This document shows positions 15,085 to 18,535 of a DNA stretch of 21,771 bases, piece by piece. Where the stretch lies: positions 1 through 21,771 of the IMG/VR virus record IMGVR_UViG_3300022220_000027; one strand, given 5' to 3'. Every line of letters starts with the position of its first letter. Within the stretch, counting starts at the first letter, position 1. Source of the stretch: a virus. The notes under the pieces are model-generated. The model did not search any database. It was not told the origin of the DNA and saw only the letters and a list, made by a program, of their open reading frames with translations. The position numbers and the translations under genes are program-made.

Positions 15085-15656
15085 CACACATCCACCCGCC
15101 AGCCCTCGGACACATACTGACGCTGCTCACTGAGCCACGTAATCAAGGCCCCATCAAACCACCGGCGGAACATCCGGTCCCATTCGTCATACGCCCGAAT
15201 GTTGATATGGAGGTCTTCGCCAGACGGCAGACGCGAGGGACGATTGTTCGCTGTCAGCACAACATGGCGCCGCGCGACGCGGTGTAACTCACGGCACACA
15301 AGCTCATCATCTCCCGGTGGCAAATGTTCGATGACGTCAAACAGGCTAACGACGTCGAACGCATCATCCGGGAACGGCAAGTCATGGCCTTGGGCTTCGA
15401 CCACGGTGCTGCCGTCAATGAGGTCCGCCACCACCTCCGTACCCTTGTAACTTGTGAAGCCAAGCTCGCGAGCATGTATCAGCATCTCACCCCGGCCGCA
15501 CCCGACATCGAGATAGGTGCCCCGGCATGGAAGGTCGCGAAGGTCCTTGATGGCATCCACCATGCGACGGTCGCCCATTCTGTAGTTAGGCAGCTTGTAC
15601 GCTACGTCGTACTTGGCCTGCTCGGCAGCTCGCACCGTGTCCATGATGGTTGTCAC
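15084..15656 (-). CDS. Class I SAM-dependent methyltransferase (190 aa)
   Basis: I set the start at GTG 15656: GAGGG lies 6 bases upstream and the codon overlaps the previous TGA (GTGA). The longer frame to 15689 lacks such a site. Motif I is YLDVGCGRGEML, with the acidic residue of motif II in YKGTEVVADLI, and FDVVSLFDVIEHLPPGDDEL is the typical post-motif of small-molecule or sugar methyltransferases of the Methyltransf_11 type. There is no DNA-recognition domain and no NPPY or cytosine-methylase PC motif, so DNA modification is unlikely. Within this cassette it may methylate a glycan made or attached by its neighbours. Confidence 0.88.
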   Translation of the reverse strand: MTTIMDTVRAAEQAKYDVAYKLPNYRMGDRRMVDAIKDLRDLPCRGTYLDVGCGRGEMLIHARELGFTSYKGTEVVADLIDGSTVVEAQGHDLPFPDDAFDVVSLFDVIEHLPPGDDELVCRELHRVARRHVVLTANNRPSRLPSGEDLHINIRAYDEWDRMFRRWFDGALITWLSEQRQYVSEGWRVDV

Positions 15657-16060
15657 AAGATGCCCTCTAGTTGGTGCTTGGGGAAACAATGAAGCGCGCT
15701 GGTAGGCGTGCAGTTGATTACCTCCACGTCGGCGTCCGCGAGGTCTTCGACAGCACCCGCGAACGCCGCCACCCAGTTGTCGAAGTTACGTTGCTGCGGA
15801 TTGTTCAGCCCCTTGGGATGGTCACCGTGCCAATGGACGCGCCCCTCGGGCGAGGCCCCCATATCACAGCCCAACAACACAACACGGGAAGCACCCATCA
15901 GCATGACAAGGTTCAAAGCCTGAAACGTACTGTTGCAGCCCTGGTGTATGTACATCGGGTCAAAGGACAACCCCGGCCGGTCCCGGCTCTCGATGTGTTG
16001 CACACCGTTGCCGACATCATCCTGTGACACCTTGAGACCGGCAAACGTGGGACGTTCCAC
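15653..16060 (-). CDS. Rossmann-type protein, DUF115/MptE-like or sialyltransferase-like, lacking a proper start (135 aa from first GTG)
   Basis: The first canonical start in this frame is GTG 16060, but it cuts the domain: the nucleotide-binding loop lies upstream (see 16061-16336). The visible part has HQGCNSTFQALNLVMLMGAS, VVLLGCDMGASPEG and VHWHGDHPKGLNN, then a C-terminal DVEVINCTPTSALHCFPK. This is the pattern of phage proteins related to DUF115/MptE-like and Cst-type glycosyltransferase folds (G-PSL loop, LLG-D strand, N-SAL-CFP end). These are predicted nucleotide-sugar or nucleotide-diphosphate enzymes. The stop overlaps the methyltransferase GTG. As written the gene would be inactive unless reached by frameshifting from the preceding gene or the window has a one-base error. 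Confidence 0.72.
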   Translation of the reverse strand: MERPTFAGLKVSQDDVGNGVQHIESRDRPGLSFDPMYIHQGCNSTFQALNLVMLMGASRVVLLGCDMGASPEGRVHWHGDHPKGLNNPQQRNFDNWVAAFAGAVEDLADADVEVINCTPTSALHCFPKHQLEGIL

Positions 16061-16336
16061 TTCCCACCACGTGGCGTCGCAGCCATACAGAAGGTCAGCC
16101 CACGGGGCGAGCCGGTAGGTGGTGTTAATTACGGCCGTTCGCGCTTTGCCTTTGACGTACTCGACCTGCTCGCCGGTGAGCGACGGCCCGCTAGCGATGA
16201 TTGCGACGGTTTCCCCTGGCCAGATTCTCGGGACTGGAGGCCAGGGGCTGGCGAAGGGTCGACCTGGATTACCTTCTTCTCGATACGCGGGCCGACCTTG
16301 ATAGCCAACTCGTTCAGCAGAAGGTCCTGTGCCAGG
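16061..16336 (-). other. In-frame coding extension of the Rossmann-type gene without a start codon (overlap with preceding gene)
   Basis: After a TGA at 16337-16339 the frame of the downstream gene is open but contains no ATG, GTG or TTG before 16060. It encodes PFASPWPPVPRIWPGETVA, then IIASGPSLTGEQVEYVKGK and AVINTTYRLAPWADLLYGCD. This is a convincing N-terminus for the domain, with the Gly-Pro-Ser-Leu nucleotide loop at about 16178-16200. In the same DNA the preceding gene's frame reads low-complexity Ser/Arg-rich sequence. The coding signal therefore changes frame (-1 direction) near 16255-16285. A programmed frameshift, a natural indel or a sequence error would each explain it. Confidence 0.8.
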
Positions 16337-16431
16337 TCATCGCTCATATCTTCCGGAATCCGGTAGACGCCGGGGTACCAAATACGCCGCACGTCGCGGA
16401 ACACAGAAAGCAATTCAATTCGATGCTTCAT
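16129..16431 (-). CDS. Small post-capsid protein; C-terminal third probably out of frame (100 aa as read)
   Basis: The first 55 or so residues (MKHRIELLSVFRDVRRIWYP, then GVYRIPEDMSDDLAQDLL and AIKVGPRIEKKVIQV) read as a genuine small protein. It resembles those that commonly follow the major capsid gene, with the pattern PGVY.IP.DMS..LA. After about residue 57 the sequence becomes PSPAPGLQSRESGQGKPSQ and a Ser/Arg-rich tail, which is the shifted shadow of the downstream enzyme's N-terminus. The true protein may end near 16260 or be fused to the downstream domain. The start codon is separated from the only good Shine-Dalgarno sequence by a strong hairpin (16437-16466). Role unknown; a capsid-associated function is possible. 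Confidence 0.68.
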   Translation of the reverse strand: MKHRIELLSVFRDVRRIWYPGVYRIPEDMSDDLAQDLLLNELAIKVGPRIEKKVIQVDPSPAPGLQSRESGQGKPSQSSLAGRRSPASRSSTSKAKRERP

Positions 16432-16436
16432 GCCGT

Positions 16437-16473
16437 ACCGGGGCCAGCCCGTGAGCCGGCCCCGGTTCCTCCC
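16437..16473 (-). promoter_or_regulatory. Hairpin splitting a Shine-Dalgarno sequence from its start codon
   Basis: Reading the minus strand after the capsid stop: AAGGGAGGAA (GGGAGG at 16473-16468), then a perfect 9-bp inverted repeat ACCGGGGCC/GGCCCCGGT (16466-16458 and 16445-16437). Its inner GGC/GCT bases add three more pairs, one of them G-U, around the loop TCACGG. Then come ACGGC and ATG at 16431. Unfolded, the Shine-Dalgarno sequence is about 36 bases from the ATG. Folded, the effective gap is about 6 bases. Phage T4 gene 25 is the precedent I recall for such a split site. It may also protect the capsid mRNA 3' end. No T-tract follows, so it is not a normal terminator. Confidence 0.7.
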
Positions 16474-16485
16474 TTCAGATTGTGA

Positions 16486-17784
16486 CTACGCGATGGTGGT
16501 CTTGATCCACTTGATGGCGTCGTTGTTCAACACGGTGCCACCCTCGCGGCGGCGAATGTAGAACCGAACAAAGCCGACGTTGGTGACGTTGTCGCGCGTG
16601 ATACGCAGGCCTACCCGGTCTGCGAGCACGTAGCCCTTGCGGAAGTCACCGAACGCGATCGGGAGGTTGTTGGTCCCGATGTCGTCCAGCTGTTCCCAGG
16701 TGCGATGGTCGTACCCGAGCAACCGGTCAGGCTCACCACCGGCAAGCCCAGGCTGCCACAGGTACTGGTTCTGCGTGTCCTTGAGCTTGCGTACCGCCGC
16801 CGTGGTGTTTGAGTTCATCACGAACGTGCCGTTTGCCCGGTACATGCTGTTCAGCTTGTAGACAAGCGAGATGAGCGAATCGGCCTGGACCTCGGCCACC
16901 ACCGGGGAGTCGTCCCCGAGGCTCGCAATGAACTCGTACACTGCGGCAGCACGTAGCGGAGAGTTGAAGTCCGCCACCTCCGTCGGTGCACTGTTGACCA
17001 TGCCGGTGGGCTTGGACGTCCCGTCGCCACTGATGACCGCGCTGCCTTCCTGAAGTGCAAACTCCTGCGCCACTTCCTCGGCAAGCCACTGTTCGACGTT
17101 GAAGAACACATCGTCCAGAGACCATTCCGACGCTTGCGGGTAAGCGTAGAGCTCGCCGAACGTCGGGGCTGCCTCGCGCAGCTGCGGTGTGTTCGTCTCC
17201 GACCGGGTACCGGCTTCACCGACCCACCCGGAACTGCCGCCGCGAATGTTCACCAGTTCCTTGTAGTCCGACGTCCCGACTGCGACCACCTTGACCAAGT
17301 CACGCACCGGGGAGAACTTTTTCTCGAGCCGCGCAATCTCGGTGCCAATCTGTTCCGGCACCGCGAAGCCACCGGCTGCACCGGTAGCAATCGACACGGC
17401 TTTCATCTCGATGGCCTTGCGGCTCAAGTCTTGAAGCCGCTGCTCATCGTTCGGGCTCTGTCCCTTGTTCCGAATCCAGTTCTCGAACGCGTCGTTGTAC
17501 TCGTCCTTGAGCTTGTCCTCAGCCGTCTTGCCTGGGCTCTTGCTTCTGGACTCCAGCTCCTCGATGCGATCGCGCTGGTATTCCATCTCCGTGCCGAGTT
17601 CCATCTTCAGTTCGGCGAACTTCTTCAGGTCGACCTCGATACGGCCAAGCTTCTCGTTAAGCTCGCCCGCCTTGACCGTGTCACCCTTCTCGATAGCCTC
17701 GATGCGGGCATCGTTGGTGTTCTTGAACTCCTCGAACGCCGTTGCCTGGGCGTCAATCGATTCTGCAATTTTCTGCCAACTCAT
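16486..17784 (-). CDS. Major capsid protein, HK97 fold (432 aa)
   Basis: The start is ATG 17784 with GAGGT 7-8 bases upstream; the longer frame to 17874 runs back into the protease gene. Residues 1-110 form a charged coiled-coil delta (scaffold) domain (IEVDLKKFAELKMEL, YQRDRIEELESRS) that the adjacent protease should remove. The mature shell starts near ALSIATGAAGGFAVPEQ-type sequence (SIATGAAGGFAVPEQ at about 131-145). It continues with classic HK97-family landmarks: VGEAGTRSETNTP, EVAQEFALQEGSAVISGDG followed by TSKPTG, GYDHRTWEQLDDI and NNLPIAFGDFRKGYVLADR, then RFYIRRREGG. It assembles the icosahedral head with the portal and protease encoded just upstream. Confidence 0.95.
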   Translation of the reverse strand: MSWQKIAESIDAQATAFEEFKNTNDARIEAIEKGDTVKAGELNEKLGRIEVDLKKFAELKMELGTEMEYQRDRIEELESRSKSPGKTAEDKLKDEYNDAFENWIRNKGQSPNDEQRLQDLSRKAIEMKAVSIATGAAGGFAVPEQIGTEIARLEKKFSPVRDLVKVVAVGTSDYKELVNIRGGSSGWVGEAGTRSETNTPQLREAAPTFGELYAYPQASEWSLDDVFFNVEQWLAEEVAQEFALQEGSAVISGDGTSKPTGMVNSAPTEVADFNSPLRAAAVYEFIASLGDDSPVVAEVQADSLISLVYKLNSMYRANGTFVMNSNTTAAVRKLKDTQNQYLWQPGLAGGEPDRLLGYDHRTWEQLDDIGTNNLPIAFGDFRKGYVLADRVGLRITRDNVTNVGFVRFYIRRREGGTVLNNDAIKWIKTTIA

Positions 17785-17815
17785 TTGAGTTACCTCGGTT
17801 CTGTGATGTGCTGTA

Positions 17816-18535
17816 TTAGAGACGGAAGATTCCGGACACCATGACGTCAACATGACGTGACAGTGCATCCGCAACCGCCTTCATTTGCTCCTCATCGACA
17901 GCACCGGCATCCCGCAGGGAGTTGGGCGTCCCGCTCAACTCGTGGTCGATATCGTCTTCAGCGTCGGCAACAGCCGACACAATCTGCATCGCTACTTTGC
18001 GACTGCATCCGGCGTCCCGCAAGATGCGTTCAAACTCGCGATGCGTGGGTATGTACTCTCCGTGCACGGAGAGCCGTGACTTAGCCGCTGTTACTTGTGC
18101 CAGCGGGTTCATTGCAAGGCTGACAATCGAGACCTCCCACAGGTCCAGGTCCTTCAACAGACGGTTGCCATCCTCATCGAAGTCGATGTCATTGGCCTTG
18201 TAGCCAATGCTCATGCCTCGGACGGCCTTGTGCTGAAGCAGCGTCCGCATCTCGTTGCCAAGTGGCGTATCCACAAGCTCACCCTTGACGAACAGGCCGT
18301 CATTTTCTTCGCGCATTTCTTTCCACACGCCGGGCACCTGTGCCGGGTTGTGCATCCAGAACATGGGCGGCAAGCTGCCGCTGGACTTGTGCTCGGCTAA
18401 TGACCGTTTGAACGCGCCAGGCACGACGATGTCGCCGCCAAGGTCCACGTTGCGGAACACGGAACCGAGGCCGGAGAACTCACGCGACGCCAAGTTCTTC
18501 ACGTCCAGAGATATGCTGATGTGGTTTGTCTGCAT
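17816..18535 (-). CDS. Prohead protease, HK97 gp4-like (239 aa)
   Basis: This serine protease of the herpesvirus-assemblin fold cleaves the capsid delta domain during head maturation. Visible features are FSGLGSVFRNVDLGGDIVVPG with AFKRSL, the catalytic His62 in MFWMHNP, Ser109 in VRGMSIGY and Glu134 in DLWEVSIV. The spacing matches the HK97 gp4 triad (about His65, Ser114, Glu138 from memory). The C-terminal 90 residues are helical and acidic, probably the assembly-targeting tail that is removed by self-cleavage. It sits between portal and capsid genes as usual, with a GAGAG ribosome binding site upstream. Confidence 0.94.
   Translation of the reverse strand: MQTNHISISLDVKNLASREFSGLGSVFRNVDLGGDIVVPGAFKRSLAEHKSSGSLPPMFWMHNPAQVPGVWKEMREENDGLFVKGELVDTPLGNEMRTLLQHKAVRGMSIGYKANDIDFDEDGNRLLKDLDLWEVSIVSLAMNPLAQVTAAKSRLSVHGEYIPTHREFERILRDAGCSRKVAMQIVSAVADAEDDIDHELSGTPNSLRDAGAVDEEQMKAVADALSRHVDVMVSGIFRL

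Follow-up and report, generated by a model that had tools for sequence, protein, structure and literature searches.

The junction between the major capsid gene and the gene following it in this viral genome most probably carries a hairpin-bridged (split) ribosome-binding site (RBS) for the post-capsid gene, a function assigned from sequence and given a probability of about 0.77. The window, meaning the whole stretch of DNA analyzed, comprises 21,771 nucleotides (positions 1 to 21,771 of IMG/VR record IMGVR_UViG_3300022220_000027), and all coordinates refer to it. On the minus strand, the capsid stop codon is followed by a Shine-Dalgarno (SD) sequence, a hairpin, and the ATG of the post-capsid gene, in that order. 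The best reading is a split RBS that works like those of T4 genes 25 and 38, is unrelated to them by descent, and recurs in a clade of phages. Support for this reading comes from the geometry of the junction, the lack of another SD or start codon, the predicted stability of the stem, and the recurrence of the layout with different stems and a similar effective spacing.

Architecture of the Post-Capsid Junction

The HK97-like major capsid protein is encoded by an ORF on the minus strand (16486..17874; PHROG phrog_10, major head protein, E 1.2e-63; start codon provisional), which ends with a TAG codon read at 16488-16486. From this codon the minus strand continues through TCACAATCTG to the SD AAGGGAGG (16475-16468), a single A, the 5' arm of the hairpin ACCGGGGCCGGC (16466-16455), the loop TCACGG (16454-16449), the 3' arm GCTGGCCCCGGT (16448-16437), the pentanucleotide ACGGC without a T-run, and the ATG (16431-16429). 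The latter codon lies 5 nt past the stem and opens a gene of 100 aa (16129..16431, minus strand), whose N-terminal domain is homologous to the small post-capsid protein of relatives. The gap between the capsid stop and the ATG is 54 nt, and the SD lies only 10 nt past the stop. AGGGAGG pairs with the anti-SD at -9.2 kcal/mol, more strongly than any other sequence in a survey of gene starts in the window, the capsid ORF reaching -7.6 kcal/mol. In the same survey, the 20 nt preceding the ATG at 16431 contained no SD, and no ATG, GTG, or TTG was present in any frame between the SD and this ATG. Direct reading and an inverted-repeat search thereby bear out the first-pass annotation, which had described a strong SD, a perfect 9-bp inverted repeat extendable to 12 pairs with a 6-base loop, and an ATG, with no other start codon within reach of the SD.

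The distance from the SD to the ATG is 36 nt in the linear sequence and 6 nt once the hairpin is folded and excised from the count. In the proposed mechanism, the SD on the capsid side would pair with the 16S anti-SD while the GC-rich hairpin would remain folded, looped out of the spacer. The folded hairpin would set the SD and the AUG 6 nt apart, allowing the 30S subunit to initiate the 100-aa post-capsid gene with the stem unmelted. We infer that ribosomes use AAGGGAGG and tolerate the stem. The split site with an effective spacing of about 6 nt, as originally put forward in the first-pass annotation, is thus supported at the sequence level by both the geometry and the recurrence in relatives described below.

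Predicted Fold and Stability of the Hairpin

The inverted repeat (I9) has nine Watson-Crick pairs inward from its base and extends to 12 nt per arm, with 92% complementarity, one G.U pair, and a 6-nt loop, which formation of the inner U.G pair would reduce to CACG. Folding of the RNA, proposed by the first-pass annotation as a check, predicts 13 pairs, a 4-nt loop, and an energy of -27.6 kcal/mol for the hairpin at 16466-16437. The 71-nt junction segment folds better than its shuffled versions (z -2.4), 4 of 200 being equally good. The predicted probability of the stem is near 1 in three sequence contexts, and predicted accessibility of the SD is partial and varies with context, the SD being only partly unpaired in the longer ones. 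A scan of both strands of the window for an SD, hairpin, and AUG in succession returned one site, the junction at 16475-16429. Among 2000 dinucleotide-shuffled strands, none matched with a hairpin of at most -25 kcal/mol and an SD of at most -8.5 kcal/mol, 13 matches appeared at looser limits (-20 and -5 kcal/mol), and 619 at the loosest (-12 and -3.7 kcal/mol). No Rfam family was found in the window at gathering score.

Two other roles for the stem were considered and found unlikely. The suggestion of the first-pass annotation that the device might be temperature-sensitive is not supported, as folding of the window stem is predicted to persist even at 90 C (-8.2 kcal/mol) and the SD lies outside it. 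Temperature sensing by an RNA thermometer is therefore unlikely, since melting would turn translation off instead of on. As for an intrinsic terminator in the window, the stem is followed by ACGGCATG, with no U-tract, and is absent from the list of terminator-like structures. Putative tuning of the post-capsid gene against capsid output, also raised in the first-pass annotation, is possible.

Conservation of the Hairpin among Relatives

Capsid homologues were collected from IMG/VR and bacterial genomes, and the sequence past the capsid stop was extracted, giving 172 distinct regions, in 109 of which the next gene was located by a family HMM. Hairpins were identified by a core-stem search and starts were chosen by homology; three doubtful start picks (L151, L166, and L217) were excluded, and L048 was adjusted manually for the own-clade SD count only. 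A hairpin of -10 kcal/mol or better was present between stop and start in 74 of 78 non-redundant loci of the family, and the hairpin was better than all 30 shuffles in 65 of 75 testable regions (median z -4.7). The four loci without such a call were L005, L011, L115, and L185; in L005 the automatic pick was an upstream ATG, and a strong hairpin precedes the likely ATG. Relatives that keep the gene and lose the stem, which the first-pass annotation had named as evidence against its reading, are thus mostly absent.

A DNA-level search of phage records near the junction returned only short capsid-coding matches of ~70-77% identity, and a search of IMG/VR with the 100-aa protein returned only a contig identical across the gene. 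Since this sole protein match is identical, there are no close relatives in which covariation of the window's own stem could be followed. The 35.7-kb contig IMGVR_UViG_3300022413_000026 (L002) has a capsid gene and a post-capsid gene identical to those of the window; it is probably the same phage and therefore provides no independent evidence. The exact pattern of SD and stem was found in IMG/VR in two other contigs (L042 and L044), in addition to the identical contig.

Position of the SD in Two Layouts

Layouts were compared in 74 non-redundant relatives in which a post-capsid hairpin accompanies a homologous next gene. The layout was split-like (compact) in 24 of them, the hairpin lying at most 12 nt from the ATG and not being followed by an SD; in most of the remaining 50, an ordinary SD stands between the hairpin and the ATG. 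When the strongest SD-like site within 45 nt upstream was taken, it fell at the stem's 5' foot (from -4 to +6 nt) in 16/24 split-like loci versus 5/50 of the rest; the other eight split-like loci, which have no downstream SD, also lack a clear SD at this position. In the split loci, the effective SD-ATG spacing had a median of 7 nt (IQR 5-9, range 3-14 nt) versus a linear median of about 31 nt, and ordinary SDs in relatives had a median spacing of 5 nt. Examples of the effective spacing include AGGAGG at 5 nt (L010), AAGGAG at 9 nt (L083), UGAGGG at 7 nt (L110), AAGGGGG at 8 nt (L125), GGGAG at 8 nt (L107), and GGAG at 7 nt (L109) or 5 nt (L168), and the stem sequences differ among most of the split loci. 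Compared with composition-matched shuffles, the SD-like sites of compact loci were stronger (mean -3.25 versus -2.25 kcal/mol, a value reached by 0/300 shuffles), an excess that is only moderate because the segments of these loci are purine-rich. Among relatives, the SD is the variable part of the junction, shifting to the 3' side of the hairpin where room allows. The sense hairpin was more stable than the antisense one in 21 split-like loci versus 1 with the opposite order, which suggests a role at the RNA level, but the mRNA strand was also favored in the other class and this bias does not separate the two layouts.

Pseudomonas phage PARCL1pr (L281), whose record is annotated and names the host, also has a split-like junction, in which the capsid gene is followed by CAGGAGG, a hairpin with a GUAA loop, a T-run, and GTGC ATG, the downstream gene encoding a gp6-like connector. 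This junction possibly combines a terminator and a split RBS.

Distribution within the Clade and Covariation

The smallest well supported clade including the window contains 32 capsids, of which 16 have the split layout, 10 the conventional one, and 6 another. The split label requires 11 changes on the tree, at least 6 of them being forced by supported branches, and the nearest capsid neighbor of the window (L048) has the conventional order. Within this clade, and with two near-copies dropped from the SD counts, an SD before the hairpin was present in 16 and absent from 3 compact loci versus 3 and 8 loose ones (Fisher p 0.0045), and an SD after the hairpin was present in 1 and absent from 18 compact loci versus 9 and 2 loose ones. 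Phylogenetically independent pairs pointed in the expected direction (5.2 versus 0.8), with a median p of 0.125 and too few pairs for significance.

Compensatory changes, a further check proposed by the first-pass annotation, were seen in one small group of relatives. None was seen for the stem of the window itself, since the search returned no close relative in which this stem is altered. The group consists of four homologous split loci (L098, L101, L108, and L110) that keep all 8 aligned pairs, of which one has both bases replaced (G-C to A-U) and another a single base; compared with L098 and L101, L108 and L110 have an extra inner C-G pair and retain the GNRA loop. The covariation score of this small sample was equaled by 128 of 500 shuffles, so that these substitutions are consistent with a maintained stem and are not proof of it.

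Loop Types

The two layouts differ in the loops of their hairpins, a comparison made post hoc after the lists had been seen and not predicted beforehand. GNRA tetraloops occurred in 12/24 split-like loci versus 2/50 of the rest (p 7.5e-6), and UUCG tetraloops in 0/24 versus 15/50, such as L147, L155, L163, L176, and L179, which belong to the conventional class with the SD after the hairpin. Within the window's own clade, the GNRA contrast was 10/8 versus 1/11 (p 0.018); the window's own loop is not GNRA. A tentative idea, to which we give considerably less credence than to the split site itself, is that the post-capsid hairpin of this HK97-like clade has repeatedly switched between a terminator-like form (often UUCG, SD after) and an RBS-bridging form (often GNRA, SD before). 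The preference for GNRA might then reflect a specific contact of the looped-out hairpin with the 30S subunit or a protein, the hairpin being something other than a passive spacer.

Alternative Explanations

The hairpin could instead be a post-capsid terminator or a stabilizer of the mRNA 3' end, with its location between the SD and the ATG incidental and the downstream gene read at a low level without an SD. Such a role would fit the near-universal presence of a post-capsid hairpin in relatives, many of which have a U-tract and then a separate SD; in 21/46 loose loci, five or more U lie around the end of the stem. However, the window stem has no T-run and was not classed as a terminator, compact loci less often have a U-rich tail (at least 5 U in 4/28, although mean U counts do not differ significantly, p 0.09), and the loop types differ between the two layouts. 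In addition, this explanation leaves unaccounted for the SD at the stem foot, which is preferred where none follows the hairpin, and we regard it as improbable, albeit the most credible of the alternatives. Somewhat less probable still is translational coupling, in which ribosomes terminating on the capsid gene would be captured by the SD and re-initiate at the ATG, the hairpin being of secondary importance. The short distances from the stop codon (10 nt to the SD and 54 nt to the ATG) would permit it, but the distance from stop to SD varies among split loci, from about 1 nt in L083 and L108 to >30 nt in L010 and L110, whereas their effective SD-ATG spacing varies little, mostly within 3-9 nt. 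Coupling could act in addition to the split site.

Readthrough of the capsid TAG, producing a fusion of the capsid protein with the next gene product, was considered because in the window the capsid reading frame stays open beyond its TAG and meets the ATG in register, at a distance of 57 nt (16488 minus 16431). Relatives do not keep this register, with distances of 62 nt (L005) and 70 nt (L017) from the first base of the stop to the ATG, and they differ in stop codon (TAA, TGA, or TAG), which makes readthrough very unlikely. Even smaller is the chance that a G-rich SD-like stretch happens to lie beside a fortuitous inverted repeat: loose matches of this kind did arise in the shuffled strands, but none of the 2000 shuffles reached the observed strength, and many relatives share the arrangement.

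Genes around the Junction

The protease, portal, and terminase genes are located upstream of the HK97-like capsid gene in the standard order. No credible Pfam or PHROG match was obtained for the post-capsid protein of the window, and the family alignment relates its first ~45 residues (PG-Y-R-V-P-D pattern) to the small post-capsid protein of relatives. Its position is that of Sb7 in Salmonella phage ST64B. In most relatives, the post-capsid protein continues with a basic linker and terminates in one or two short APENK motifs (L010, L017, L066, L071, L083, L098, L107, L108, L109, L110, L125, and others), and in some phages (L012, L016, L018, L104, L113, and L195-L197) the capsid gene is followed by the gene of a mini-protein, a few dozen residues long, that consists of hardly more than the APENK tail. 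APENK is likely a conserved short linear motif; the protein of the window has no clear copy of it. The next ORF (15653-16060, minus strand) matches PHROG 4603, annotated as alpha-2,3-sialyltransferase (E 3.9e-29), an unusual enzyme-like gene within a head module that is also found in L004, L094, L103, and L119. In L004 and L094, sequence resembling this ORF is fused to the post-capsid domain, and in some relatives the sialyltransferase-like ORF seems to follow the capsid gene directly.

Comparison with Known Systems and Significance

The precedent cited by the first-pass annotation, T4 gene 25, is a genuine one: RNA structure reduces its SD-AUG spacing from 27 to 11 nt, and that of gene 38 from 22 to 5 nt (PMC3014915). 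The gene 25 site has been confirmed by reporters and DMS probing, and mutations that destabilize the structure reduce initiation at the T4 split sites (PMC3014915). Like the window site, that of gene 25 (at the gene 26-25 junction) has its SD and AUG split by RNA structure, is intercistronic, and is found in only part of its phage group (PMC3014915). The two differ in the genes and phage lineage involved, the window site being post-capsid with a 12-13 bp GC-rich hairpin, and in their conservation, as stems differ between the relatives of the window, whereas about 30 T-even phages share one conserved gene 25 stem (PMC3014915). In terms of spacing, gene 38 (22 to 5 nt) is close to the window (36 to 6 nt) (PMC3014915). 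It is another gene in another lineage, and homology is not expected.

E. coli thrS, an autoregulated gene, differs from the window in having a multi-domain leader. Its long hairpin is accommodated by the ribosome and not unfolded, as proposed here for the window stem (PMC3936740). Closer to the window, ST64B-like phages and Pseudomonas relatives have a hairpin at the equivalent intergenic site, ahead of a small gene that shares the family or the position of the window's, but their SD lies between the hairpin and the ATG, their loops are often UUCG, and U-tracts are common. No description of the same arrangement after capsid genes was found in the open-access literature, subscription papers being outside the search.

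The junction is most likely functional, as a new instance of an established mechanism. The finding reaches further than one phage in that the layout recurs at the same gene junction throughout a clade, interchanges with a conventional layout, and differs from it in loop type. Split RBSs have so far been known as a few individual cases, and here they form a natural series at one conserved junction, with different stems, a similar effective spacing, and sister phages having the ordinary layout. This series opens the questions of which hairpins the ribosome tolerates between SD and AUG, what role the loop type has, and how a terminator-like hairpin becomes a translation element. It also carries a warning for gene finding: where a start codon has no SD close by, the SD may be located 30-40 nt upstream, on the far side of a hairpin.
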